Origin: a virus
IMG/VR virus record: IMGVR_UViG_3300037586_002945
Span: 1-20,137 of that record
Length of the DNA stretch: 20,137 nt
Direction: 5' to 3' (one strand)
Below are positions 321 to 15,142 of the stretch, piece by piece. A program made the translations under genes and the position numbers. A model generated the notes under the pieces. That model worked only from the letters and a program-made list of their open reading frames with translations, had not been told where the DNA came from and searched no databases. Position 1 is the first letter of the stretch. The number at the start of each line of letters is the position of its first letter.

Positions 321-1208
321 ATGGCTACGTCTGGATCTATAAATTTCGAACTCGATGTAAATGATTATATTGAGGAAGCCTTTGAACGGTGCGGTCTTGA
401 AGTTCGTACAGGTTATGATCTAAAAACCGCGAAGCGTTCTATGAACTTGCTTCTAGCGGATTGGGCTAACCGTGGCTTAAACCAATGGACCATTAAGCAG
501 ACCTCCATAACCGTTGCGGCGGATATTACTGAATATCCTGCGGGCACCGTAACTATGACGGTGGGTTCTAGTTCAGGTTTTACGATCGCTGAAACCATTA
601 CGGGAGGAACCAGTGGCGCTACGGCTTCCATTACCAATCTTCCCTCGGGTACTTCAATGGCGATCACCATTCCGACAGGAACTTTCACCAGCGGTGAAAC
701 CCTTACAGGTGGGACAAGCGCAGCAACTACCACCCTTTCTGCTGCCGTTGATTTAACGAACGCACAGGGCACCATAGATATTTTATCGTTAGTGGTTAAA
801 CGAGGCGATAACAGTTATGCCGCCGCGCGTTTAAGTCGGGACGGATATATTACGATCCCAAATAAAACAGAAACAGGTCGTCCTTCCCAGTTTTTCTTAG
901 ATCGACAAGTAACGCCTAATTTAAAAATTTGGCCTGCGCCTGAAAACAGTACAGACATTCTCATTTTTGATCGTCTTTATCGAATAGACGATGTTGATGA
1001 TTTTACAAATACACTTGGTGTACCGTTTCGTTTTTATCCTGCTTTGGCAGCAGGACTTGCTTATTACATTGCGTTAAAACGAGCGCCCAATCGGATTCAA
1101 GTTTTGAAACCGTTATATGAAGAAGAGATGGAGAGGGCTATGGTAGAAGATCGTGACCGAGCCTCGTTTAATGTCGTGCCTAGCTTAGAGTATGCGAAAT
1201 TTAACTGA
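321..1208 (+). CDS. P22 gp4-like head-tail adaptor (tail accessory factor) with repeat insertion
   Basis: 295 residues. The N-terminal 60 residues have the layout of P22 gp4-type adaptors: a helix ending in a small 'CGL' turn (24-26), a second helix with AKRSMNLLLADWANRGLNQW (37-56), then a beta strand. These proteins bind under the portal ring after DNA packaging and form the platform for the nozzle. The C-terminal half contains LSRDGYITIPNKTETGRPSQ and IWPAPE, then a helical end (PALAAGLAYYIALK). P22 gp4 is about 166 residues; part of the excess here is a glycine/threonine-rich insertion at about 75-147 holding two copies of a GE/AETxTGGTSxAT motif. No ribosome site is evident. The ATG is 3 bases after the previous stop, and the TGA overlaps the next ATG (TGATG), which suggests translational coupling at both ends. 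Confidence 0.75.
   Translation: MATSGSINFELDVNDYIEEAFERCGLEVRTGYDLKTAKRSMNLLLADWANRGLNQWTIKQTSITVAADITEYPAGTVTMTVGSSSGFTIAETITGGTSGATASITNLPSGTSMAITIPTGTFTSGETLTGGTSAATTTLSAAVDLTNAQGTIDILSLVVKRGDNSYAAARLSRDGYITIPNKTETGRPSQFFLDRQVTPNLKIWPAPENSTDILIFDRLYRIDDVDDFTNTLGVPFRFYPALAAGLAYYIALKRAPNRIQVLKPLYEEEMERAMVEDRDRASFNVVPSLEYAKFN
579..731 (+). repeat. Two-copy Gly/Thr-rich repeat inside the adaptor gene
   Basis: Residues 87-102 (FTIAETITGGTSGATA) and 122-137 (FTSGETLTGGTSAATT) are copies 35 residues apart. The intervening sequence has the same beta-strand, threonine-rich character. The two DNA copies have diverged, so this is not a recent duplication. Confidence 0.8.
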
Positions 1209-1510
1209 TGTCTCGTTTTGCTGTAGGAAAACATGCGCGGGGAATTTCAGATAGATCTGGGTTCTCTTATTTACTTAGGCGTATGAAAAAGGAATGGACC
1301 GGAGCGCTTGTTGGCTATGATGAATGGGAACAAAAGCAGCCCCAGTTAGACCCAAGACGTAAGGTAGTGGACCCACAGGCTTTGAAAAATCCTCGTCCCG
1401 ATAGGGTCGAACCAATGGTGGTCTATGTGGATACGATTATTCCTGAAATAGCTAACTTTAAGCCCATCATGTCTGTGGGGCAGGTTGGCGCGGTGACGGT
1501 GGCGACATGA
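1208..1510 (+). CDS. Conserved small virion-associated protein, cysteine-free zinc-finger relative
   Basis: 100 residues, no cysteine. The pattern ISDRSGF (13-19), KKEWTGALV (27-35), KQPQLDP (43-49) and DPQALKNPRPD (55-65) matches, from memory, a phage family whose other members read CDRCGF, EWNGLxVCPEC, KHPQL and DPQALxxPRP. At the four expected metal-ligand positions this protein has Ser14, Ser17, Gly36 and Glu39. Its role is unknown; genes of this family sit between adaptor genes, and that placement holds here. The C-terminus (SVGQVGAVTVAT) resembles the GTGSVGSVTV repeats of the 212-residue protein. ATG overlaps the upstream TGA by one base, and its own TGA overlaps the next ATG (ATGA). 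No ribosome site is evident, so expression is probably by coupling. Confidence 0.75.
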   Translation: MSRFAVGKHARGISDRSGFSYLLRRMKKEWTGALVGYDEWEQKQPQLDPRRKVVDPQALKNPRPDRVEPMVVYVDTIIPEIANFKPIMSVGQVGAVTVAT

Positions 1511-2154
1511 GCTTTACTTACTCCAGTCTAAAGACCGCTATACAGGATTACACCGAAAACACGGAAACTACGTTCGTCTCGCATATGGACGACTTTATAA
1601 AGCTGTCCGAAGAACGGATCCTGAAAAACGTCCAATTACAGCTTTTCCGTAAAAATGTAACGGGGACCATGTCTTCTTCTAACCAGTATTTAGCTGCGCC
1701 GAGCGATTTTTTAGCACCTTTTTCGTTATCTATTACAAGCAGCAGTGTTAAGAGCTTTCTTCAATACAAAGACGTAAATTTTGTGCAGTCTTTTAACCCT
1801 AACAGTGCTACAACGGGAACGCCCCGGTATTATGCGCTGTTTGACATAACCAACTTTATTATTGGCCCAACGCCGGATAGTGGATATACCACGGAAATGC
1901 ACTATTTCTACCGACCCGCCAGTTTGACGGCTGCGGGAGACAGTGGAACAACGTGGTTGAGTGAAAATGCCACGTTGGCTCTTTTATATGGGTGTTTAAC
2001 CGAAGCCTATACCTATATGAAAGGGGAGCAGGATTTAATGGCCGAATATGAAAAACGCTTTGGAGAATCTATGGTGGCCTTAAAGATGTTTGGGGAAGCC
2101 AAGGAAGTTACGGAAGATTATCGTGCGGGTATGGTTATTAGGCCAAAACAATGA
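1507..2154 (+). CDS. SU10-like phage adaptor protein
   Basis: 215 residues. The N-terminus (YSSLKTAIQDYTENTE, 5-20) followed by HMDDFIKLSEERILKN (25-40) and a beta-rich centre (LAAPSDFLAPFSLSI, then PRYYALFDITNFIIGPTPD) is the layout of the head-to-tail adaptor family typified by phage SU10. A helical C-terminus (ATLALLYGCLTEAYTYMKGE, 157-176, then AEYEKRFGESM) completes it. Such proteins form a ring between portal and tail. This window has both a gp4-like and an SU10-like candidate, so the neck may have two stacked rings, or one of the two may have another job. The start overlaps the previous stop in ATGA and the stop overlaps the next start. Confidence 0.75.
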   Translation: MSFTYSSLKTAIQDYTENTETTFVSHMDDFIKLSEERILKNVQLQLFRKNVTGTMSSSNQYLAAPSDFLAPFSLSITSSSVKSFLQYKDVNFVQSFNPNSATTGTPRYYALFDITNFIIGPTPDSGYTTEMHYFYRPASLTAAGDSGTTWLSENATLALLYGCLTEAYTYMKGEQDLMAEYEKRFGESMVALKMFGEAKEVTEDYRAGMVIRPKQ

Positions 2155-2447
2155 TGGACGCATTAAAATTAGACCTTCCTTCCGATTATTCCGTAGAGGT
2201 TCATACGACAAATAATCGTGGCTTTACGCCTGAAGAAGTGGCGCACCACTGTGCAAACAAAATCATTTCTATATCCAACAATACTCATCCGGGTATTCAG
2301 GCACAGGCTTACGCCTTTAAGGGCCATATAGAAAAAATGATTGCCTTTTACATGCGTGAAGCCATTAAGAGTGATCGAACCACTGTCTATAACGCATTAA
2401 TGGATGCAGGTCATCCAGAACTTGCTGAATCCATTAGGAGACTTTGA
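2151..2447 (+). CDS. Conserved small phage protein of unknown function
   Basis: 98 residues, all-helical appearance. The features are NNRGFTPEEVAHHCANKI (21-38), HPGIQAQAYAFKGHIEKMIAFYMREA (46-71) and SDRTTVYNALMDAGHPELAESIRRL (74-98). I recognise this as a recurrent small protein in tailed phages of marine and alphaproteobacterial origin, always near adaptor or structural genes, without an assigned function. Two consecutive ATGs (2151 and 2154) are possible starts; the first overlaps the previous TGA (ATGATG). TTAGG at 2138-2142 lies about 8 bases upstream. The gene ends at TGA 2445-2447, one base before the next start. Confidence 0.75.
   Translation: MMDALKLDLPSDYSVEVHTTNNRGFTPEEVAHHCANKIISISNNTHPGIQAQAYAFKGHIEKMIAFYMREAIKSDRTTVYNALMDAGHPELAESIRRL
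2436..2440 (+). promoter_or_regulatory. Ribosome binding site fixing the start at 2449
   Basis: AGGAG lies 8 bases before the ATG at 2449. The reading frame is open further upstream with an ATG at 2404, but that ATG has no comparable site and would overlap the previous gene by 44 bases. Confidence 0.75.
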
Positions 2448-2448
2448 T

Positions 2449-2883
2449 ATGGCTTTTACCGGAAATTTTATGTGTACGTCTTTCAAGAAAGAATTAATGG
2501 AAGCCAAGCACAACTTTTTACTTAGTGGTGGGAACACCTTTAAAGCTGCTTTGTATACCAATAGTGCCTCTTTTACGGCAGCTACAACAGCTTATACGGA
2601 CACTAATGAGGTTTCTGGTACGGGTTACGTCGCTAAAGGTAACACGCTTACTCGGATAGATCCGACAACCAGTAGCACCACGGCGTATACGGATTTTGCA
2701 GATACTACGTGGTCATCCAGTACAATCACGGCTCGTGGTGCGATGATTTTTAACGAGGATACTACTGGAGATACTTCAGTGATTGTTTTGGACTTTGGTT
2801 CTGATAAATCCTCCAGTTCGGGAGACTTTAAGATTGTATTTCCCGCTGCGGACGCCAGTAATGCAATTATAAGGATCGCTTAA
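2449..2883 (+). CDS. Probable virion structural protein, beta-rich, unassigned
   Basis: 144 residues. It opens MAFTGNFMCTSFKKELMEAK (helical) and continues beta-rich: FKAALYTNSASFTAATTAYT, then EVSGTGYVAKG, DFADTTWSSSTITARGAMIF and IVLDFGSDKSSSSGDFKIVFP. The pattern 'K.ALYTNSA...T.Y...NEVSGTGY..GG-like..L' is common among small phage structural proteins near tail or capsid genes. Related proteins are variously labelled tail, decoration or hypothetical, so I do not assign a subtype. The start at 2449 is chosen because of the AGGAG 8 bases upstream; an in-frame ATG 15 codons earlier is less likely. The TAA overlaps the following ATG (TAATG). Confidence 0.7.
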   Translation: MAFTGNFMCTSFKKELMEAKHNFLLSGGNTFKAALYTNSASFTAATTAYTDTNEVSGTGYVAKGNTLTRIDPTTSSTTAYTDFADTTWSSSTITARGAMIFNEDTTGDTSVIVLDFGSDKSSSSGDFKIVFPAADASNAIIRIA

Positions 2884-3521
2884 TGGCCGCAATCACCGGT
2901 TGGGGCCGCAGTACATGGGGTTCAGGCACATGGGGCGAAGCCGCTCCAGTTTCCGTTACGGGTGTTGCGGGAACCGGTGCGGTTGGCTCTGTAACAGTTG
3001 AGCTTAGTATTGATGTTTCTGTAACAGGTGTTGCGGGAACCGGTGCGGTTGGGTCGGTAACGGTTACTGAAGGAAGCGGTGTAACCGTTTCTGTAACAGG
3101 GGTTGCCGGTACGGGTTCGGTAGGTTCGGTAACGGTTGAAGGTGATGCCAGTGTCAGCGTTACGGGCGTTGCGGGAACAGGTTCTGTAGGCACTGTTACT
3201 GCTACTGGGGATTCTAATGTAACGGTTACGGGCGTTGCGGGTACAGGTTCGGTTGGATCTGTAACGGTTGAAGGTGATGCTAACGTCAACGTAACCGGCG
3301 TATCCGGTACAGGAGAAACAAGCGGGGTTCTAGTTTGGAGTCTTATAATTCCAGATCAAGACCCCAGCTATAGTCAAATTAGCCCTAGCCAATCTCCATC
3401 TTGGGCTTCTGTGTCACCTTCTCAATCGCCGTCTTTTACACAAATAACGCCGAGCCAATCCCCCTCTTGGTCTTCAGAGACACCTTCTCAAACACCAGAT
3501 TGGATAAAAATTGCAGCATAG
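2883..3521 (+). CDS. Two-part repeat protein, probable surface or fibre-associated virion protein
   Basis: 212 residues with three zones. Residues 7-18 are a Trp-Gly stretch (WGRSTWGSGTWG). Residues 22-144 carry six copies of TGVxGTGxVGSVTV, starting at 26, 48, 72, 94, 116 and 138 and spaced 22 or 24 residues. Residues 157-207 carry five copies of a PSQSPSW-type motif at exact 11-residue spacing (157, 168, 179, 190, 201). There is no cysteine and very little charge. Alternating small and valine/threonine residues suggest stacked beta turns, as in trimeric fibres. It sits directly before the tail fibre gene, so a role on the tail surface is plausible but inferred. The start overlaps the previous stop in TAATG, with AAGGA about 7 bases upstream. 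Confidence 0.7.
   Translation: MAAITGWGRSTWGSGTWGEAAPVSVTGVAGTGAVGSVTVELSIDVSVTGVAGTGAVGSVTVTEGSGVTVSVTGVAGTGSVGSVTVEGDASVSVTGVAGTGSVGTVTATGDSNVTVTGVAGTGSVGSVTVEGDANVNVTGVSGTGETSGVLVWSLIIPDQDPSYSQISPSQSPSWASVSPSQSPSFTQITPSQSPSWSSETPSQTPDWIKIAA
2958..3314 (+). repeat. Six TGVxGTG repeats
   Basis: Six units with consensus VSVTGVAGTGSVGSVTV. The spacing between unit starts is 22, 24, 22, 22 and 22 residues. The last unit is degenerate (TGVSGTGETSGVLV). The DNA copies differ mainly at third positions, which points to selection on the protein. Confidence 0.95.
3351..3503 (+). repeat. Five-copy 11-residue repeat (PSQSPSW)
   Basis: Motif starts at residues 157 (PDQDPSY), 168 (PSQSPSW), 179 (PSQSPSF), 190 (PSQSPSW) and 201 (PSQTPDW) of the 212-residue protein, an exact 33-base period. 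An aromatic residue always fills the seventh position, followed by four variable residues. Confidence 0.95.
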
Positions 3522-3531
3522 GACATGAGTT

Positions 3532-5469
3532 ATGGCAAGTACATACACAACTAATCAGGGCCTCGAAAAACCGGCAACGGGGGACCGTTCTGGAACGTGG
3601 GGAACCATGACGAACACCAACATGGACATGTTGGACAGAGCTATCTCAGGAGTGGGCGCACTCAGTCTGACAGGCACAACTACTACATTAACCACGTCAG
3701 ATGGCTCCGCTTCAGACGGGAACTATAAAGTTCTGATTTTGGGTGGAAGCCCAAGTGGTACTAACACTATTACGTTAAGCCCCAATGATGCGGATAAATT
3801 GTATTTTGTAGTTAATGCCAGCGGCGAAAGCGTAATTTTTTCACAAGGCTCTGGTGCGAATGTCACGATTGCCAATGGTGCGGCTGACATCATCTACGCG
3901 GATGGCGCAGGAGCTGGCGCGGCCGTTTCGAGTTATTTGGCTAACGACTTTGTTTTTAAGACGGGCGATGGCGTAATTCTGAACCTTCAGACTTCTGATA
4001 CGACCGTTACTGCTTCAAGTGTTTTGGGCCGTTTGAATTTTACCGCTCCCAATGAAGGCTCCGGTACAGACGCCATTTTATTAGCCGCATCCATCGCCGC
4101 TATTTCAGAAGGCACTTTTGCAGCAAACAACAATGCCACCAAATTGTCTTTTATGACGGGTGCTTCAGAAGCGGCGAGTGAAAAAATGTCGCTGTCTTCC
4201 GGCGGTAATTTAACGCTGCCAACAGATGGAGTAGTTATTGCCACCGGGGCAGATTCCGACGTCCTGCTCACTCATGTGGCGGACACTGGTCTGACTATGT
4301 CTGTCACCGGAAACAACGTTGCCCAATTATCAGTGACTACAGATAAGGGTACTGCCGCTGTCGGGCCGGTTTTTAATTTAACAAGATATTCTGCGAGCCC
4401 CGCTGCTAGCGATGGCGGCGGAATCATCCAGTTCTTGATGGAGAACGACAACGATCAACTGTGGACTGCTGCTCAAATCTATTCAGTAGCAGTAGATGTT
4501 GCTGATGGGACTGAGGACGGTAAGCTCGTCATAAATACGATGAAAGCTGGCACTTCCACTACGGCGTTAACGATTTCGGATACCGGTATTCAAGTTCCAG
4601 ACGGCGGCACCATTGGTAGCGCTTCAGACACCGATGCGATTGCCATACGGTCTGACGGGAATATCGGTATCGGTGCGGCGGCTTCAGACACAAAGCAAGT
4701 GTATGTCTATGACAATACGACCACCGATCAACTCCTGAGCCTGTATCAAGCCAATGCCGGAAACGGCCAAGCTGGAATTTACCTTACGCATGAGGGGACG
4801 GGAACTGGAATTTATGGACAGGTCAACTTAGGTACGGGTTCAGCCGTTTACGGATACCACAACTCCAGTGGAAGTGTTGGAATCGGAACACGCGGTTATT
4901 CTGTTAGTGGGTACGGCGGCTATTTCGCGACAGGATCTGCGACATACGGTGGGCTTATCGGGTTTAGCGAAGACGGGAGCGAGTACGCGATTTTGGGATA
5001 CCAAAATACTTATGGTGTTTGGACGACAAGTCTGACAGCAACCGGCACAAAATCTTTTCAAATTCCGCACGGACTTCGAGAAGGGTACGATTTAGTACAC
5101 TCAAGTATCGAAGGACCGCTCGTTGACCTAATTTATAGGGGGTCCGTCGATCTCGTAGAGGGAAGAGCCGAAATTTCTATCGACACGAAATTTGGATTCA
5201 CTCCCGGAACTTTTGAATGGCTTACAAAAAATCCACAGACATTCACATCTAATGAAACCGGTTGGGACGCGGTTAAAAGTAGTTTTTCCGGCGACACCAT
5301 CACCATCGAGTGTCAAAACACATCATCGACCGACACAATCAGTTGGATGGTTGTTGCCGAACGCGACGATCCCAACATCAGAGCAACGAGCAAAACGGAT
5401 TCCAATGGTAATCTAATTGTTGAGTGTCCAAGCGACGTGCCGCCGCCACCACTACCACCAGAGGATTAA
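3532..5469 (+). CDS. Tail fibre / receptor-binding protein
   Basis: 645 residues. The N-terminus (TTNQGLEKPATGDRSGTWGT, 6-25, followed by NTNMDMLDRAISG) is the widespread phage fibre anchor module 'PATG..sGtWGt..N.N...ld.aisG'. A long threonine/serine/glycine-rich beta shaft follows (about 45-400). Residues about 400-500 contain GIYGQVNLG, AVYGYHNSSG and YGGYFATGSATYGG, a repeating Gly-Tyr fibre pattern. A C-terminal domain from about 507 to 617 (SFQIPHGLREGYDLVHSSIE, then VDLIYRGSVDLVEG and SWMVVAERDDPN) looks like the tip domain seen at the end of many marine phage fibres. The last 13 residues are proline-rich. There is no peptidase or lyase motif that I can see. AGGA at 3520-3523 lies 8 bases before the ATG. 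Host attachment is the inferred role. Confidence 0.8.
   Translation: MASTYTTNQGLEKPATGDRSGTWGTMTNTNMDMLDRAISGVGALSLTGTTTTLTTSDGSASDGNYKVLILGGSPSGTNTITLSPNDADKLYFVVNASGESVIFSQGSGANVTIANGAADIIYADGAGAGAAVSSYLANDFVFKTGDGVILNLQTSDTTVTASSVLGRLNFTAPNEGSGTDAILLAASIAAISEGTFAANNNATKLSFMTGASEAASEKMSLSSGGNLTLPTDGVVIATGADSDVLLTHVADTGLTMSVTGNNVAQLSVTTDKGTAAVGPVFNLTRYSASPAASDGGGIIQFLMENDNDQLWTAAQIYSVAVDVADGTEDGKLVINTMKAGTSTTALTISDTGIQVPDGGTIGSASDTDAIAIRSDGNIGIGAAASDTKQVYVYDNTTTDQLLSLYQANAGNGQAGIYLTHEGTGTGIYGQVNLGTGSAVYGYHNSSGSVGIGTRGYSVSGYGGYFATGSATYGGLIGFSEDGSEYAILGYQNTYGVWTTSLTATGTKSFQIPHGLREGYDLVHSSIEGPLVDLIYRGSVDLVEGRAEISIDTKFGFTPGTFEWLTKNPQTFTSNETGWDAVKSSFSGDTITIECQNTSSTDTISWMVVAERDDPNIRATSKTDSNGNLIVECPSDVPPPPLPPED
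5460..5465 (+). promoter_or_regulatory. Ribosome binding site for the 53-residue membrane protein
   Basis: AGAGGA lies 6 bases before the ATG at 5472. It supports that start over an in-frame ATG at 5424 that lies inside the fibre gene and would add 16 mostly arginine/threonine residues. Confidence 0.7.
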
Positions 5470-5679: not shown

Positions 5680-7575
5680 ATGCCTTTAACTAAACTACAA
5701 TTTCGTCCCGGCATTAATCGAGAAATTACTTCCTACAGTAATGAAGGGGGCTGGTATGACTGCGACATGGTTCGTTTCAGATACGGCGTACCTGAAAAGA
5801 TAGGGGGCTGGCAACAGGATTCTTCCTCCACTTTTTTAGGCACCTGCCGTGCGCTTCATACTTATGTTTCCTTAGCGGGTAGTGTTTATACCGGCGTAGG
5901 CACCAACCTAAAATATTACATTTATTTGGGTGGCGCGTTCGCGGATATTACGCCGTTGCGTTCGACTACGTCTGCGGGGGATGTGACCTTTGCTCGTGTT
6001 GGCGTTGGGGATGCAACGCTTACGGTTACGGATACAAACCACGGTGCGGTAGCAAATGACTTTGTTACTTATTCCGGGGCAGCTAGTTTAGGTGAAAACA
6101 TTATTGCGGCGGTTTTAAATCAGGAATATCAAATTGCCACCGTTACAGATGCCAGTACTTACACCATTGAGGCGAAGGATACCGATGGAGATGCGGTATT
6201 AGCTGCCAGTGGTGACTCCGGTAACGGAGGGAGTTCAACCGTAGGAAAATATCAAATAAACACAGGACTGGACTCTACCGTTTTTGGTACAGGCTGGGGT
6301 ACGAGTACGTGGGGCCGTGGTACGTGGGGATCGAGCAGTACCCTCACGGTGTCCGACACGTTGCGACTATGGTCCCATGATAATTTTGGTGAGGACTTAA
6401 TATTTAATGTTCGTGACGGAGGTATCTATTATTGGGACACAAGCGCCAAGACACTGGGCACTGATCGTGCTGTAACGCTTGCTTCGCTAGATACAGATTC
6501 CGCCATACCGACGATTGCCAAACAGGTATTGGTATCTGACCGAGATCGCCACATTGTGGCTTTTGGCTGTGATGGGGAAACCACCATTGGAACGCAGGAT
6601 CCTCTTCTGATTCGTTTTAGCGATTCGGAAAGTACGACGACGTGGAATGCGTTGGCGACCAATTCCGCCGGGGAATTACGAGTAGGGTCTGGATCTGAAA
6701 TTATCTGTGCCGTGGAAACCCGACAACAAATTATAGTGTTTACGGATGCTTCGTTACACGCTATGCAGTTTTTAGGGCCGCCCTTCACTTTTGGCATTTC
6801 CCAGTTGTCTGAAAACATCACCATTATGGGTCCGATGGCGGCAAAGGCAGTGGATGACACGATTTTTTGGATGGGCCAAGAGGACTTTTATGTCTTTGAT
6901 GGGCGCGTTCAGAAGCTCCCCTGCGCCGTGCGCTCTTACATATTTGACGATTTTAATGTGGCTCAAAAACAAAAGGTTTTTGCAGCCCTCAACTCCACTT
7001 TTGACGAAGTCTGGTGGTTTTATCCTTCAGGGGATTCCACAGAAATAGACCGATATGTGATTTACAATTATCAGGCGCAGGCTTGGTCCTATGGTTCCTT
7101 GGCCCGTACGGCATGGTTAGATCGCGGCATTAACGACTATCCTTTGGCAACCGGCACGGATTACTATATGTATGATCACGAATATGGCTTAGATGACGGT
7201 AGTACAAACCCGCCTTCCGCTATTAGCTCCCATGTGGAATCCAGCCAGATTGACCTTGGAGACGGTGAACGGTTTGTGTTTATTCGCCGCCTAATTCCCG
7301 ACGTAACGTTTGGCGGTTCGACGGCAACGTCTCCCACTGCTACATTTACTTTGAAAACACGGAATTTTCCGGGCGGAGCCTACCTAAGCTCTGACGATAG
7401 TTCGGTCACACAATCGGAAGCCGCCACTTCCACGGTAGTAGAACAATTCACCACTCAGGCGTTTGTGCGTCTGCGGGGACGCTCTTTTGCCCTCCGTGTC
7501 GCCAGTTCTGCGGAACAGGTTCAATGGCGTTTAGGATCTCCGCGTGTTGAAGTACGACAGGATGGACGACAATGA
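5680..7575 (+). CDS. P22 gp10-like packaged-DNA stabilisation / tail nozzle protein
   Basis: 631 residues. The start (LQFRPGINREITSYSNEGGW, 6-25, then CDMVRFRYGVPEKIGGW) is typical of P22 gp10-type nozzle proteins, which cap the adaptor ring as a beta-propeller and hold DNA in the capsid. Propeller-like strands include FNVRDGGIYYWD, SDRDRHIVAFG, AVETRQQIIVFTDASLHAMQ, TIFWMGQEDFYVFDG and DEVWWFYPS. Residues about 100-200 form an extra beta domain (TLTVTDTNHGAVANDFVTYS). GWGTSTWGRGTWG at 205-217 repeats the Trp-Gly motif of the 212-residue protein. P22 gp10 is about 470 residues, so these additions explain the extra length. The 46-base gap upstream holds the mini-ORF; the stop overlaps the next ATG (ATGA). 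Confidence 0.8.
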   Translation: MPLTKLQFRPGINREITSYSNEGGWYDCDMVRFRYGVPEKIGGWQQDSSSTFLGTCRALHTYVSLAGSVYTGVGTNLKYYIYLGGAFADITPLRSTTSAGDVTFARVGVGDATLTVTDTNHGAVANDFVTYSGAASLGENIIAAVLNQEYQIATVTDASTYTIEAKDTDGDAVLAASGDSGNGGSSTVGKYQINTGLDSTVFGTGWGTSTWGRGTWGSSSTLTVSDTLRLWSHDNFGEDLIFNVRDGGIYYWDTSAKTLGTDRAVTLASLDTDSAIPTIAKQVLVSDRDRHIVAFGCDGETTIGTQDPLLIRFSDSESTTTWNALATNSAGELRVGSGSEIICAVETRQQIIVFTDASLHAMQFLGPPFTFGISQLSENITIMGPMAAKAVDDTIFWMGQEDFYVFDGRVQKLPCAVRSYIFDDFNVAQKQKVFAALNSTFDEVWWFYPSGDSTEIDRYVIYNYQAQAWSYGSLARTAWLDRGINDYPLATGTDYYMYDHEYGLDDGSTNPPSAISSHVESSQIDLGDGERFVFIRRLIPDVTFGGSTATSPTATFTLKTRNFPGGAYLSSDDSSVTQSEAATSTVVEQFTTQAFVRLRGRSFALRVASSAEQVQWRLGSPRVEVRQDGRQ

Positions 7576-7871
7576 GTTCCAGAAGCCTTGTACAGCCGCA
7601 ATTTCCGCTTCCTCCGAATGCCTATGACGCGGCCTATATGGCTGAAATCGTGCGATCCTTTTCCGTGTTTTTACAGCAGGTCAACAATCCCGGCGACTCA
7701 CGGGCCACGACCATGACTCTCACGAATCTTCAATCAGACGATTATAATCTGGAAACAGGAGCGCTTTTCGAGCATGAGGCTTATATCAAAATCACCCTTG
7801 GGAACGTCTCCAATCCTCGCGGAAGCGCAGGTACGGGAACCGTGGGATCGGCGACGGTAACCACTTCCTAA
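7572..7871 (+). CDS. Conserved small phage structural protein, unassigned
   Basis: 99 residues. The N-terminus PQFPLPPNAYDAAYMAEIVR followed by SFSVFLQQVNNPGD (31-44) and ATTMTLTNLQSDDYNLETGALF is a pattern I associate with a small protein that follows the nozzle gene in marine podovirus-like contigs. It appears to be one N-terminal helix plus a short beta domain. The C-terminus (GSAGTGTVGSATVTTS) matches one unit of the TGVAGTGSVGSVTV repeat found 4.5 kb upstream. AGGA at 7559-7562 is 9 bases before the ATG. It overlaps its neighbours at both ends (ATGA and TAATG). Function unknown. Confidence 0.65.
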   Translation: MSSRSLVQPQFPLPPNAYDAAYMAEIVRSFSVFLQQVNNPGDSRATTMTLTNLQSDDYNLETGALFEHEAYIKITLGNVSNPRGSAGTGTVGSATVTTS

Positions 7872-9822: not shown

Positions 9823-10865
9823 TGACTGAATCTACTGTCTCTACACAATTTATCCGAGAAGACCCGGCTATTGAAGCCTATCGCCTTGGTCTTTTAGAGG
9901 ATGTACAAGGCTTTATAAGAAAGCAGATAGAAGAAGGCGTACTGCCCCCTGATTATCAGATTGCGGGTTTATCCGGTTTAGAACAAGCGGGTGCGAGTTT
10001 AGCCGAAGGCGGTATTGGTGCTTACGAGCCTTATATTGCAGGCGGCCTTCGCGGCATACAGGCCGGACAAGCCGCCGTTTCGGGTGCGGCGCTACCCATG
10101 ATGGGCGCTGGTTTTGACGCCTATAAACAAGGCTTGGCCGGAATTCCGACAACCGCAGCACAATTTGATCCTACTATGGCTCAGGCCTATATGGATCCCT
10201 ATGAAGATCAGGTCGTACAGCAAACACTTGCAGACCTTCAACGACAGTCGGCCATTGCTGATCAAACTTTAAAAGCGCAATCCGTGGGTGCGGGCGCTTT
10301 TGGGGGTTCGCGTCAAGGCATTCAACTTGCCGAAGGCGCAAGAAACCTTCAGGAGGCACAGGCCCGTGCTTCAGGACAATTGAGATCTGCGGGTTATCAA
10401 CAGTCCCTTCAAAATGCCCAACAAGCGTTTGAAGCAGCGCAACAACGACAATTGGCGGGCGTGGGCCTTACCGGTCAGTTAGCCCAAGGTGTTGGTCAAT
10501 TAGGCTTACAAACCGGTCAGTTGGGGGGCCAGTTGGGTACGTTAGGGCTACAAGAGGCCGGTTTGGGAGAATTGCGCACTAATCTGGGGATAGCTCAATC
10601 CAGAAATCTTATGGACATAGGTGGTGTACTACGGCAGCAGCAACAATCGGAATTGGACGCACTGCGTCAAACCAATCTTGCTCGACAAGCGCAGCCCTAT
10701 CAGCAGTATGCTTTCCTGTCGGACATTTATAAAGGAACGCCGTCAGGACAGCAGGTCATTACTTCTTCTGCGGCGGCACAACCCTCGGCCTTTCAAACGT
10801 TTACGGGATTGGGTATTGCGGGAACAGCTACGGCGGCAGGCGCTAAAGAAGCGGGGTTATTCTAA
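9822..10865 (+). CDS. Gln/Ala-rich helical internal virion protein
   Basis: 347 residues. It has the diagnostic stretch AYMDPYEDQVVQQTLADLQR (126-145) followed by AQSVGAGAFGGSRQGI, which I recognise from many marine phage genomes placed among putative internal virion proteins. Residues about 170-300 are Gln/Ala/Leu-rich helix with glycine-leucine repeats (GQLGLQTGQLGGQLGTLGLQ). Then come RQTNLARQAQPYQQYAFLSD and IYKGTPSGQ, also a conserved end. There is no membrane helix; the last 25 residues are Gly/Ala-rich. AAGG lies about 12 bases before the ATG. TAATG overlaps occur at both ends. A scaffold for the ejection complex is plausible. Function is not experimentally known to me. Confidence 0.7.
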   Translation: MTESTVSTQFIREDPAIEAYRLGLLEDVQGFIRKQIEEGVLPPDYQIAGLSGLEQAGASLAEGGIGAYEPYIAGGLRGIQAGQAAVSGAALPMMGAGFDAYKQGLAGIPTTAAQFDPTMAQAYMDPYEDQVVQQTLADLQRQSAIADQTLKAQSVGAGAFGGSRQGIQLAEGARNLQEAQARASGQLRSAGYQQSLQNAQQAFEAAQQRQLAGVGLTGQLAQGVGQLGLQTGQLGGQLGTLGLQEAGLGELRTNLGIAQSRNLMDIGGVLRQQQQSELDALRQTNLARQAQPYQQYAFLSDIYKGTPSGQQVITSSAAAQPSAFQTFTGLGIAGTATAAGAKEAGLF

Positions 10866-13800
10866 TGGCGGGTGTTTTATCTAGACCTTTATTTCGTCAA
10901 CACTACCAGACAGGTGGTGGGGTTTCGGACCCTTGGGGTTATTCTTCGGATCAATGGGAACGCGGAAAAGGCATTGCAGGCGAAACCCTCGAACGTGGAA
11001 GAGGTATGGGTAGAGCCACTGTTGAATATCTAATGAAGCAAGGCCTTTCTCTTGAAGAGGCCGTAGAACAGATAAAAAATAACCCCCGTTTAATAGAAGC
11101 TCTAGAACGTGGAAGAGGCGTTGCAGGCGAAGCCCTCGAACGTGGAAGAGGCGTTGCAGGCGAAGCCCTCGAACGTGGAAGAGGCATTGCAGGCGAAGCC
11201 CTCGAACGTGGAAGGGCCGCTATAGACGATCCCCGTGTAAGATCAACCCTCGAACGTGGCAGGGGTATGGCGGGCGAAGCCCTCGAACGTGGAAGAGGAC
11301 TTATGGAACGCCTACACGGAGTACCCCCCGGCGGCTTTGGTGCAGGTTCGGTTAATGTGCCCCCCGGCGGCTTTGGTGCAGGTTCGATTAATGTGCCCCC
11401 CGGCGGCTTTGGTGCAGGTTCGATTAATGTGCCCCCCGGTGGTTTCGGGGGGACTAATTTACCCGTACCCGTACAGCGGTCTGGTTTGCCCGTACCCGTA
11501 CAGCGGTCTGGTTTGCCCGTACCCACAAGTAGCGATGTAGGGTTTCCTCGATCCTTTGATACGGATCATATAGACAGCTTCCGAAATAAAGCCGGACGTT
11601 TTGCAAGAGGGCTTGGACGTTTGGCAATGAACCCTTATTTAGCTGCCGCTTCAATAGGGATCCCTTTAGCTTACGACGCTTTAACAGATTCTCCAGAAGA
11701 ATTGTTGGATCAACTAGACACACAAACACGCGCCTATGTGGAATATTTAATGGAACAAGGCGTTTCCATTGAAGAAGCGCTAAAAATAGCTAGTCCCTCC
11801 GAAGAAGCTCCTTTAGAAAGGCAAGCCGGTGGGGCTGTTTCACTAGGAAAAACAGCGTTAGCTGGTTTAGGTGTGGGAGCCGCTGGAGGAACAGGGTATT
11901 CGCTACATACGCTGAACCGGAGACAAGAGCAACAGCAAGCCTTGGCCCTTTTACCTCCAGAACAACGGGATTGGGTAAAAGCCTTGGTTGATCAGGGTAT
12001 GCCTGTTGAAGAGGCCTTAGAAGCAGTTATTCCTTCTGAAGAAGACCCCTCTTTTAAGGAATCTATTTTAAATTATTTTCGGGAAAATATGACCGGTCCT
12101 CCACCAATTTTTGGTCGAGACGGGATTATTGAGAGAGCATCCAGACGAGGTCGATACGGGATTATTGAGAGAGACATTCAACCTTGGCGCGAACTACCAG
12201 CGGGTAGCTACCAAGAAGGTGGCCCCGTCATGTCACCACAGGCGATGATGCCGCCACCACAGGGAATGCCTCCGCAGGCGATGATGGCCCCGCCTCAAGC
12301 CGCACCTGCTGGCATGGATGCGTTAATGGGACAAGCGCCACAAATGTTAAGCCGAGCCGAAGGGGCGGTAGCTACACGAATGGAAGACGTGGGCCGTGAG
12401 TACGTCAACAACACGTTATCTGCGGTAGACAGGGCTGAAGATCCCGAAGAGTTAATAAACGCTATTCGTGGAACAGACGCACCTATTGAGCAACGGTATG
12501 ACGAACTAGCCCAAATAGTGGGCGAACAGGACGCAGAGGCCACGCCGCCTTCTGTTTTAACCTTGGTACAGCCCGCGCTTATGATGACAGAGCAGGGTGC
12601 CGTGGACAGTGGTATAGGCAACCTGATGCAGGAATTATCGAGTAGTGCTGAAATGCTGACGGGAGAGGGCGAAGCCACTCCGATGGGAGAGGGCGTCGGC
12701 AATTTGATGATGGCTGGTGCACAACCGGCAATGGAAGCGCTCCCCCCTGAAGCCATGATGGGTCCACCGCCCGGAGCGATGATGCCACCACAAGCGATGA
12801 TGCCACCACCGCCCGGAGGAATGGCCTACGGCGCCCCCGTACAGCGTTTTGCTCAAGGGGGTATGGTTAATAGTGCGGAAGAATTAGCCCGTCTAGGACG
12901 GGGGCCAGATACCAAGTTGGTTCATATGTCTCCACGAGAAGTCGGTGCGCTAGACGAGATGGCTAGACAAAGGGGGTTTGCTGGACTACCTCTTAATCCA
13001 CAAACAGGGCTTCCGGAAGCCGGGCTATTTGATCAGGCTCCGGGTAGCGGTATATTGGGCTACTTGGGCGGCTTCGCTGTTGACCCTTTGGGGTCTACGT
13101 GGGATAAGACGACCGGACTATGGAGAAAGGGGGTGGATTTCTATAATAATCCCACTATTCAGAGGTGGCTTGGCGAAGGGGATTTTAAAACGAAGATACC
13201 CGCTATAGCAGCGGACGAGAGCGCTCTGAAGGCATATACCATCCCCGAGGCCCCTATTCAGAGGGTAGGTCCCCGAGATAGGGCCACGATGCCGAGCTAC
13301 ACAGCAGCAGACCTGCTTACGCCAGAGAGCTTTGTCAATTTCGGCTCCAATGCCCCCCTGTATAATGCAAGGAAACGTGCAGAGACGCGCATAAGGGACG
13401 GGGGTATTAGCAGCCTAATAGCCGACCCTGTCTTTGATGCCCCAACAATAGCTCCGGTAACAGTTACGGACACAGAGGCAACAGTAATTGAGCGTCCGAT
13501 CAGAATGGACTATGAACCGGGACGGCAAGACTTTATGGTCGATTATAACGATCCCGAGCGTTTTAAAAAAAACTTTGACGCGCGGCTTAAACTTTACGAA
13601 GACGTTTTAGGCTCTGACAAAGACTTTACTAAATCCCAGATGCTGTTTGACATTGCGGGTGCGGGTTTAAACTTTGCCGGTGGGCGCGGTGCGGGTGGTG
13701 AAAATGTTGCCACACGATCTCCTGCGGCGCAGTTAGCAGCCGCTTTTTCGCAAGTACCTAAAACTATGGGGGAACGTCTGGCGCTGCAAAGACAGGAAGA

Positions 13801-15142
13801 ACGGGGTGTGAAAACCGCCGCCCTCGCGGCCACCGAAAAAGAAGAAACCGCCCGCCGAGAGGTCGTCGCGGACGAGCGTAAACTTAAACAGAACCTGCTG
13901 TTTGACGTTTCCAAGGGGACTTTTGATGCAAACAATCTTGTGAATCTAACTGAGGGAAAGATGACGCATGAAAGAACTTTAGCGACGGCAGACCGCTTCT
14001 TGAAGGGAGAACTTGCAAGACTATCGAGCAGCACCGATTTAGCAGCAGTTGCCATGAGCGGCAAGATTAACGCTGCTAGGGACGAGATAGGTCACCTATA
14101 CAACACTATCGACAGAGCAGCAACGCTAGACACCCGCCAAAAGGACCGACTGGTATTGGCTAATACAGCGCTTACCCAGACTAATCTAACACTGGCAAAT
14201 GAGCGGGAACTAGCCCAGCATAGAGAAGAAAACCAAAACATAAGGTCTGAAAGAGAACTACGCCTTAACGAAAATCTTAATGAGGCCCGGCTTAGACAAG
14301 AGCGCGAGGCGCTAAGATTACAACGCGCTAGAGGTCTAGATGAGTGGTATTTAGGCCTAGAAGCGGCGCAAACAGGAAGACTATCTCTAAAGCTACAAAA
14401 AGAAATAGCGGAGATGGGGGGTTATGCGGAGGCCTCTCAATTTCATAGGGTGCAGGAGTTCAAAGAGAAGCTTTCGGACAGAGAGCTACGGATGTTTGAG
14501 AAAAAACTTGGGATGAACTTCTTGATGGCGACCGCGGGCCAACTCACCAGAGAAGATTTGCTGCGAGAGTCCGCGTTCGATAGACAACTCGAAATCGCAA
14601 TGGGCACAGACAACTGGAACAAGTTCATATACCAACTAGATGAAAGCGTACGACAATTTGACATAGATCACGGGCTAGAGGCCGATTCAATATATGGCAC
14701 ATTGGCGCTTAAAAAGAGGGTCTTAGATCAGGAGGCCCTTGAATATCTTAAAGGCAGCACACCGGGTGTTTTTGACAACATTCCGGGCGGCACTCAAGCA
14801 GAAAGAGATCGAAGGATTTTTGCAATGAGGCCCCTATGGAAGCGTTATGCGGAAGGAACGTTAGCTCCTGCTCAGGAGGATTATTTATCCGCTCTTATAA
14901 CAGGCTATCTGGATCCCACGCTAAACGCGCAAGGCCTCGAAACGCGCAAGGCCCTCCCACAAATGGCGCTTGCGGCTCTCCGAGGACGAAAGAAGCGGGG
15001 GCTAACCATGCCCATACAAAATGCTATGGACCTGAAGTTTGAAGATGTAGATCCGAACTTTTTTGATTCAAACGCGGCCGAAAACGCGGCCGAAAGGAAA
15101 GCCGCGCTAGACAGGCACTTCGGTGGGCGTTCTTTATGGTAA
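10865..15142 (+). CDS. Giant internal/ejection-type virion protein with stacked tandem repeats
   Basis: 1425 residues. Residues 1-150 hold LERGRG(V/I/M)AGEA repeats. Residues 153-198 hold VPPGGFGAGSIN repeats, and 199-222 LPVPVQRSG repeats. Three copies of a helix-loop-helix (V..LM.QG.S.EEA) lie at 53, 292 and 371. Residues 456-485 and about 629-660 are Met/Pro-rich (QAMMPPP). Between them is a conserved helical block (RAEGAVATRMEDVGREYVNN, then TPPSVLTLVQPALMMTEQGA and DSGIGNLMQELSSS) that I recognise from marine phage internal proteins. Residues 680-720 repeat the LVHMSPRE...NPQTGLPEAG module of the 577-residue protein. Residues about 1035-1190 are highly charged helix, likely coiled coil. 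No lysozyme or transglycosylase motif is seen. Ejection-channel component is the best inference. Confidence 0.65.
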   Translation: MAGVLSRPLFRQHYQTGGGVSDPWGYSSDQWERGKGIAGETLERGRGMGRATVEYLMKQGLSLEEAVEQIKNNPRLIEALERGRGVAGEALERGRGVAGEALERGRGIAGEALERGRAAIDDPRVRSTLERGRGMAGEALERGRGLMERLHGVPPGGFGAGSVNVPPGGFGAGSINVPPGGFGAGSINVPPGGFGGTNLPVPVQRSGLPVPVQRSGLPVPTSSDVGFPRSFDTDHIDSFRNKAGRFARGLGRLAMNPYLAAASIGIPLAYDALTDSPEELLDQLDTQTRAYVEYLMEQGVSIEEALKIASPSEEAPLERQAGGAVSLGKTALAGLGVGAAGGTGYSLHTLNRRQEQQQALALLPPEQRDWVKALVDQGMPVEEALEAVIPSEEDPSFKESILNYFRENMTGPPPIFGRDGIIERASRRGRYGIIERDIQPWRELPAGSYQEGGPVMSPQAMMPPPQGMPPQAMMAPPQAAPAGMDALMGQAPQMLSRAEGAVATRMEDVGREYVNNTLSAVDRAEDPEELINAIRGTDAPIEQRYDELAQIVGEQDAEATPPSVLTLVQPALMMTEQGAVDSGIGNLMQELSSSAEMLTGEGEATPMGEGVGNLMMAGAQPAMEALPPEAMMGPPPGAMMPPQAMMPPPPGGMAYGAPVQRFAQGGMVNSAEELARLGRGPDTKLVHMSPREVGALDEMARQRGFAGLPLNPQTGLPEAGLFDQAPGSGILGYLGGFAVDPLGSTWDKTTGLWRKGVDFYNNPTIQRWLGEGDFKTKIPAIAADESALKAYTIPEAPIQRVGPRDRATMPSYTAADLLTPESFVNFGSNAPLYNARKRAETRIRDGGISSLIADPVFDAPTIAPVTVTDTEATVIERPIRMDYEPGRQDFMVDYNDPERFKKNFDARLKLYEDVLGSDKDFTKSQMLFDIAGAGLNFAGGRGAGGENVATRSPAAQLAAAFSQVPKTMGERLALQRQEERGVKTAALAATEKEETARREVVADERKLKQNLLFDVSKGTFDANNLVNLTEGKMTHERTLATADRFLKGELARLSSSTDLAAVAMSGKINAARDEIGHLYNTIDRAATLDTRQKDRLVLANTALTQTNLTLANERELAQHREENQNIRSERELRLNENLNEARLRQEREALRLQRARGLDEWYLGLEAAQTGRLSLKLQKEIAEMGGYAEASQFHRVQEFKEKLSDRELRMFEKKLGMNFLMATAGQLTREDLLRESAFDRQLEIAMGTDNWNKFIYQLDESVRQFDIDHGLEADSIYGTLALKKRVLDQEALEYLKGSTPGVFDNIPGGTQAERDRRIFAMRPLWKRYAEGTLAPAQEDYLSALITGYLDPTLNAQGLETRKALPQMALAALRGRKKRGLTMPIQNAMDLKFEDVDPNFFDSNAAENAAERKAALDRHFGGRSLW
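11102..11311 (+). repeat. 33-base in-frame tandem repeat (LERGRGVAGEA)
   Basis: Perfect or near-perfect units lie at 11102-11134, 11135-11167 and 11168-11200, a truncated unit starts at 11201, a further full unit lies at 11249-11281 and a truncated one starts at 11282. Degenerate units are visible from about 10955. Units 1 to 3 differ at only a couple of bases, which indicates recent expansion. Confidence 0.97.
11321..11452 (+). repeat. 36-base in-frame tandem repeat (VPPGGFGAGSIN)
   Basis: Units lie at 11321-11356, 11357-11392 and 11393-11428, followed by a truncated, diverged copy from 11429. Units 2 and 3 are identical. Confidence 0.97.
11459..11526 (+). repeat. 27-base in-frame tandem repeat (LPVPVQRSG)
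   Basis: Units lie at 11459-11485 and 11486-11512, with a partial third from 11513. The units are nearly identical at the DNA level. The array begins directly after the 36-base array. Confidence 0.95.
12113..12173 (+). repeat. 36-base duplication (GRxGIIER)
   Basis: The block starting at 12113 recurs at 12149. The 17-base core CGGGATTATTGAGAGAG is exact at 12121-12137 and 12157-12173. It is in frame and encodes GRDGIIER and GRYGIIER. Confidence 0.9.
14923..14953 (+). repeat. 14-base direct repeat with 17-base period (out of frame)
   Basis: AAACGCGCAAGGCC occurs at 14923-14936 and 14940-14953. The 17-base period is not a multiple of three, so the two copies are read in different frames (NAQGL and ETRKAL). 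Confidence 0.9.
15071..15094 (+). repeat. 12-base tandem duplication (NAAE NAAE)
   Basis: AACGCGGCCGAA is repeated exactly at 15071-15082 and 15083-15094, in frame, near the C-terminus of the 1425-residue protein. Confidence 0.95.

Follow-up and report, generated by a model that had tools for sequence, protein, structure and literature searches.

Each rung of the curli fold counts 22 residues, the curli array is seeded or anchored by the homologous partner CsgB, and the secreted subunits assemble into amyloid fibrils. In phage T7, gp7.3 is a 99-residue protein at the adaptor-nozzle junction, with a C-terminal loop (residues 84-98) that is anchored to nozzle subunits according to the structural report (PMC11784390). 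For the nozzle gp17 of phage SU10, the corresponding paper (PMC9509320) describes a short tail fibre dock loop that projects from blade 1 of the beta-propeller, in which Trp839, Trp847 and Trp857 form a quasi-threefold star that holds the trimeric fibre. In the accessible literature on curli-like or beta-solenoid phage repeats, marine phage tandem repeats and donor-strand tail proteins, we found no description of the short repeat unit that is the subject of this paper.

The tail gene cluster

The window, i.e. the whole stretch of 20,137 bases that was analysed (an IMG/VR virus record, from an uncultured marine phage), contains a tail cluster of the short-tailed-phage type (Table 1). The SU10-type adaptor passes the curated cut-off of the SU10 adaptor family PF24175 (83.4 bits versus 27), and the nozzle-type protein is akin by sequence to solved structures, namely 9nwi, whose deposited name is capsid and scaffold protein (E 3.7e-15), and the nozzle gp16 in 8zkk (E 1.8e-7). 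Comparison of p99, p100 and p212 with solved structures by sequence gave nothing credible, and in BFVD two uncultured phage proteins were found at E <1e-4; on the basis of their gene neighbours these three are presumably virion proteins. The initial annotation had noted stretches of one unit in the three separate genes, and all three are indeed present. Elsewhere in the window, a 1425-residue protein (10865-15142) starts at its N-terminus with tandem ERGRGVAGEAL and PPGGFGAGSINV repeats.

Table 1. Positions of the tail genes and of the sequence elements discussed
Feature	Position	Strand	Remarks
Adaptor-like gene	321-1208		
p100 (100-residue protein)	1208-1510	+	Between two adaptor-like genes; degenerate zinc-ribbon-like domain at the N-terminus, then a variable linker and the terminal strand
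p100 C-terminal strand SVGQVGAVTVAT	1472-1507	+	Residues 89-100
SU10-type adaptor protein	1507-2154	+	Adjoins p100; PF24175, 3.7e-23
p98	2151-2447	+	Window copy has weak strand form only (DYSVEVHTT, residues 12-20)
phrog_644 protein	2404-2883		
p212 (212-residue protein)	2883-3521	+	Trp/Gly N-terminus, 22-residue repeat array, Ser/Gln/Trp C-terminus
p212 Trp triad GWGRSTWGSGTWG	2898-2936	+	Trp each 5 residues, common to nozzle protein
Six repeat units of p212	2949-3335	+	Residues 23-151; spaced by 22 or 24; putatively a two-strand beta-solenoid
p212 C-terminal repeats	3336-3518	+	PSQSPSW type, aromatic residue each 10-11 residues
645-residue protein	3532-5469		
Nozzle-type protein	5680-7575	+	phrog_3287, 5.3e-74
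Nozzle Trp-triad loop GWGTSTWGRGTWG	6292-6330	+	
p99 (99-residue protein)	7572-7871	+	Right after nozzle gene; conserved N-terminal domain, small hairpin, terminal half-rung
p99 C-terminal unit GSAGTGTVGSATVTTS	7821-7868	+	Profile match
Tape-measure or ejection-type genes	3' of p99		

Within Pfam, PHROGs and NCBIfam, p212 and p99 matched no family and p100 matched only phrog_28581, through its N-terminus, while the p100 tail corresponded to no family described in these libraries. Weak matches to phrog_32936 were obtained for 4 of 22 p99 relatives. The N-terminal domain of divergent p100 relatives (L128, L131, L336 and others) is zinc-ribbon-like, with a CxxC..CxxC pattern that is kept in the window copy although its cysteines are gone. 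Tblastn searches of named phages with p212 and p99 gave no match, and relatives in named phages were reached via the neighbouring genes. The proteins found, WJZ48131.1 at the p212 position of DSL-LC04 and gp68 of HTVC027P, are annotated as hypothetical protein only. They share with p212 the gene place, the Trp/Gly motif, the 22-residue repeats and the C-terminal Trp repeats, but they have more units and in HTVC027P the repeats have diverged.

The repeat array of p212

The units of p212 start at residues 27, 49, 73, 95, 117 and 139, the sixth being degenerate. The initial annotation was right in counting six, but to say that they fill the protein overstates their extent, as they cover around 60% of it; residues 1-20 form a Trp/Gly motif and residues 152-212 a Ser/Gln/Trp repeat. 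The number of C-terminal repeats differs between relatives, and their aromatic residues could constitute a further dock of the Trp type. Throughout the p212 family the spacing between successive units is predominantly 22 residues (655 pairs), with 24 as the second commonest value (49 pairs), and the arrays differ in the number of units. Hydrophobic residues occupy rung positions 1, 3 and 6 and positions 12, 15 and 17, which suggests a rung of two strands. Such a rung would consist of strand A (VxVTGV), a turn, strand B (xVGxVTV) and a second turn.

The AF2 model of p212 (37 sequences) has low confidence (mean pLDDT 49.9, pTM 0.47) and displays a repeated strand-turn-strand pattern. A Foldseek search of the PDB with this model gave nothing at E <=0.001, the best match being CsgA (8enq, 0.039). 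VIA-align placed the same low-confidence model closest to curli (E. coli 8enq, Z 14.0, rmsd 8.3 with 106 aligned; P. korlensis CsgA 8c50, Z 12.2), with the beta-helix of SufB close behind (5awg, Z 12.1, rmsd 2.5). The hydrophobic pattern and the low-confidence model would fit a two-strand beta-solenoid, and the array is likely to be a solenoid of one kind or another. The likeness to CsgA and CsgB extends to the two strands per rung in the model and to the 22-residue period. In contrast to curli, p212 is encoded among phage tail genes, forms a finite array within one chain, has other conserved residues in its repeat and matched no curlin family in hmmscan against Pfam. By analogy, p99 and p100 might be compared to CsgB.

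The unit at the C-termini of p99 and p100

A profile of 13 columns was trained on the p212 family only (159 distinct units, 140 proteins), leaving out p99 and p100, and run on the 2964 distinct ORF products of 261 loci. At a threshold of 8 bits it recovered 62 of the 68 complete p99 relatives, every match being C-terminal, and 38 of the 107 p100 relatives, 34 of them C-terminally. Only 5 of the 2455 other complete proteins matched, and the one C-terminal match among these was a truncated p100. The idea that a small beta module is shared by the C-termini of different families is supported. In addition, 90/107 p100 tails scored above the 95% point of shuffled tails.

The p99 tail of the window reached 25.2 bits with this profile trained on p212-family units only, a score that was matched by none of 20,000 tail shuffles and none of 3,000 protein shuffles; for p99 tails in general the median was 24.6 bits observed versus -17.7 shuffled. 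The initial annotation had correctly located a C-terminal unit here, with its start at 7818 instead of 7821. The weaker unit that it had seen at the end of p100, at about 1470-1507, is present as well and scored 0.0 bits, which was equalled by 0.36% of the tail shuffles and 0.1% of the protein shuffles (tail p 0.0036). As this match is weak by itself, the case for p100 rests on the relatives: the xVGxVTV strand was found at 9 bits or more in 107 of 132 distinct p100 C-termini, versus 6 of 2308 other C-termini. An alignment of 38 p100 proteins shows the final Val of VTV to be invariant and the preceding linker to be variable in length and sequence.

Short Gly/Val/Thr strands also occur in other phage beta proteins and a few adjoining ORFs end in SVGPVTVSGGVTITVPSG.., as might be expected if the tails resembled the repeat by convergence or by composition. 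Considering that shuffled tails almost never score, that a single one of the 2455 other C-termini matched and that p100 variants exist with complete units in register, we consider this explanation extremely unlikely. A profile retrained without a regular expression gave the same split, with C-terminal matches at 6 bits or more in 64/71 p99, 119/169 p100 and 2/3082 other proteins. Shuffling and retraining together rule out composition for p99, and for the p100 of the window this conclusion again depends on its relatives.

The position of the strand is nearly constant, its end lying 2-3 residues before the stop in 54/54 p99 and 116/120 p100 tails that passed the cut. When core domains were clustered at 80% identity, most members carried the terminal strand in 14 of 15 p99 and 25 of 35 p100 clusters; single linkage at 60% left 3 (p99) and 4 (p100) clusters, hence few independent lineages. 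Because the first p99 sets had been ranked by the full protein, which could favour tailed relatives, p99 was searched again with its N-terminal 52 residues alone. Among the 58 distinct complete proteins from the best 80 of 122 loci, the strand scored at least 9 bits in 42, and in two others (L399 and L453) it was visible below this cut. The remaining 14 lacked it, twelve being short forms that end in ..GELRIVV and two being long forms with other ends. Consistently unrelated ends, which would have argued against a shared module, were thus confined to a minority of the relatives.

In records without the p99 unit, p212 was still matched in 7/9 and p100 in 5/9, and in three records with a short p99 (L293-L295) the p100 profile match runs to the last model position. 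Together with the 14 tail-less relatives this indicates that the p99 tail is dispensable and rules it out as an obligatory dock for p212. A clade of 83-residue p99 proteins (L023-L029, L400-L412) has ANNAAAIAGGLIAGDVYKTSTGELRIVV in place of the hairpin and tail, as if the C-terminal end were interchangeable and this a second version of it.

The presence or absence of the unit among p99 relatives would also suit a micro-module that moves between genes by recombination, as the initial annotation had suggested. Its codons speak against this: at residues where the p99 tail of the window agrees with p212 units, 11 of 53 codons were the same versus 13.5 expected from codon usage. Nor were p99 tails closer to the p212 units of their own genome, the observed value being reached by 280/2000 permutations in one analysis and by 1036/2000 in another. 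For p100 tails a slight excess was seen (0.576 versus 0.553; 0/2000 permutations), which shared ancestry could give. Moreover, many synonymous codons are in use at the conserved p99 tail positions, which points to selection on the peptide and to old tails. The unit also stayed within its three families in a fetch with the p212 array only, which yielded at least 553 relatives in viral contigs and 4 GTDB contigs. Within 80 of these loci (989 new proteins) it was present in 65 p212-like proteins, 49/62 p100 and 2/2 p99, and in no family beyond these. Overall, a mobile module is very improbable; the codon comparison and the within-genome permutations largely refute recent recombination, though not an ancient transfer.

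Phase, register and natural fusion

The tails of p99 and p100 differ from the start of the p212 array in their phase. Rung positions 12/15/17 are hydrophobic in 96-100% of both kinds of tail, and positions 1/3/6 in 2/54/38% of the p99 and 20/11/59% of the p100 tails. Among 181 p212 proteins, by comparison, the first unit has a hydrophobic residue at positions 1/3/6 in 79/78/75%, and only 9 have a strand B one rung before this unit. The tails are therefore half rungs that consist of strand B only, and the p212 arrays mostly begin with strand A.

Longer p100 proteins have extra complete units after the terminal strand, at distances of 23, 22 and 22 residues in L226, 22 in L081, 26 and 24 in L065 and 26 in L163; in the p100 of DSL-LC04 one more rung follows 22 residues on (manual count). 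The number of units per p100 relative ranges from one to about nine, all in register, and the longer proteins show that the terminal strand of p100 is part of the same array as the p212 units. In the Roseobacter phages CRP-902 and CRP-901, a single protein (gp53) carries the p100 domain together with a long array and, at its C-terminus, a Trp triad; besides gp53, the entire CRP-902 record contains no p212 match. Such a fusion is a hint, though no proof, that p100 and p212 cooperate where they are separate proteins. In HTVC027P, p100 has no strand, yet the genome encodes a p212-like protein.

These arrangements could also result from common descent without contact. An array of 22-residue units in an ancestral p100 would have shrunk to a single strand in part of the lineages and become the separate protein p212 in other lineages, and the strand that was kept would fold inside the protein that carries it or in a homo-oligomer. 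The p100 relatives with one to about nine units, the varying unit number of the arrays and the lack of covariation between p99 and p212 are in agreement with such a history. Two points speak against it. The distance between strand and C-terminus stays fixed in two families that are not related to each other, while the linker of p100 is free to vary. The p99 tail, moreover, has no predicted partner in its own chain: the AF2 model of p99 (46 sequences, pLDDT 68) contains one helix and one hairpin, followed past residue 74 by a low-confidence tail devoid of secondary structure. We regard descent without contact as possible, though somewhat doubtful.

Other carriers of the strand

With a 7-column strand profile, scores of at least 9 bits were obtained for 34 of the 136 distinct N-termini of p98 (e.g. 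MFETVESSIGQVTVATT), versus 1 of 2487 other N-termini, which makes the p98 family a possible fourth carrier of the strand. Relatives such as those at L371 1895-2179 and L357 2250-2525 frequently start with xVGxVTVxTT, after which a conserved RG..PEE region follows. Separately, adjoining ORFs of two kinds (L362 1213-1707, L362 2948-3718 and L366) terminate in SVGPVTVSGGVTITVPSGSRWVVL or sequences close to it, which may represent one more C-terminal motif in common.

That p99 and p100 end, and many p98 relatives start, with the same strand might indicate a common acceptor, in which case the strand would be a docking peptide for the edge of another virion protein (nozzle, adaptor or fibre), with p212 as a multivalent carrier and the N-terminal strand of p98 relatives as a further copy. 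The near-constant period of the array would suit regular presentation of such peptides. In the p212 repeat, however, strand A and part of the linker are conserved as well, which suggests a fold rather than beads, and the p98 of the window has only the weak form of the strand. We consider a common acceptor rather unlikely.

The Trp triad of p212 and the nozzle

The p212 and nozzle families have a second element in common, the triad GWGxxxWGxxxWG with a spacing of 5 and 5, which occurs in 138/205 p212 and 90/108 nozzle relatives. Elsewhere it was seen in 2/169 p100 proteins, which are fusions of the CRP-902 type, and in 7/3225 others, some of which may be nozzles since nozzle members were taken from the first 261 loci only. 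Like the dock loop of SU10 gp17, the nozzle and the p212 of the window carry three tryptophans on one chain; the spacing is 8 and 10 in SU10 versus 5 and 5 here, and the triad of p212 is located at the N-terminus. p212 may, by analogy, provide a second dock for fibres. The resemblance of p99 to T7 gp7.3 lies in size, presumed place and the anchored C-terminal loop of gp7.3, and is meant as an analogy without a claim of homology.

A putative docking strand

A role of the p99 and p100 strand in self-association, as the initial annotation proposed, or in docking is plausible. The reading that we favour, tentatively, is that the terminal half-rung docks the putative p212 repeat solenoid onto the phage tail; descent without contact and a common acceptor are serious rivals to it. 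It builds on the shared unit, its terminal position and conservation, its phase and register and the natural fusion, all of which are directly observed. In this scheme p212 would be a tail accessory protein with a core of 22-residue rungs of two strands each. Both p100, encoded between the adaptor genes, and p99, encoded after the nozzle, would terminate in a single strand B whose C-terminus is free. This strand could add to the open first rung of p212, which begins with strand A. The solenoid, split in this manner, would be docked by beta-strand addition onto the region of adaptor and nozzle, where trimeric fibres might in turn be held by the Trp triad common to p212 and the nozzle, in the manner of the SU10 dock loop (PMC9509320). 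A wider and rather speculative extension is that the split beta-solenoid is an assembly device of tailed phages: two ring-bound proteins each present a half rung at a free C-terminus, a soluble repeat protein completes and extends it, and a strand-docked platform of adjustable length results, which also offers trimeric fibres a Trp triad.

Should the terminal strand prove to be a docking tag, it would locate three proteins of unassigned function and provide a sequence handle for tail accessory proteins in uncultured marine phages. It would also be a rare example of several proteins in the same particle sharing one strand motif as their assembly tag. The unit itself reaches beyond the window, into families of uncultured phages, with at least 553 relatives that carry the repeat in viral contigs.
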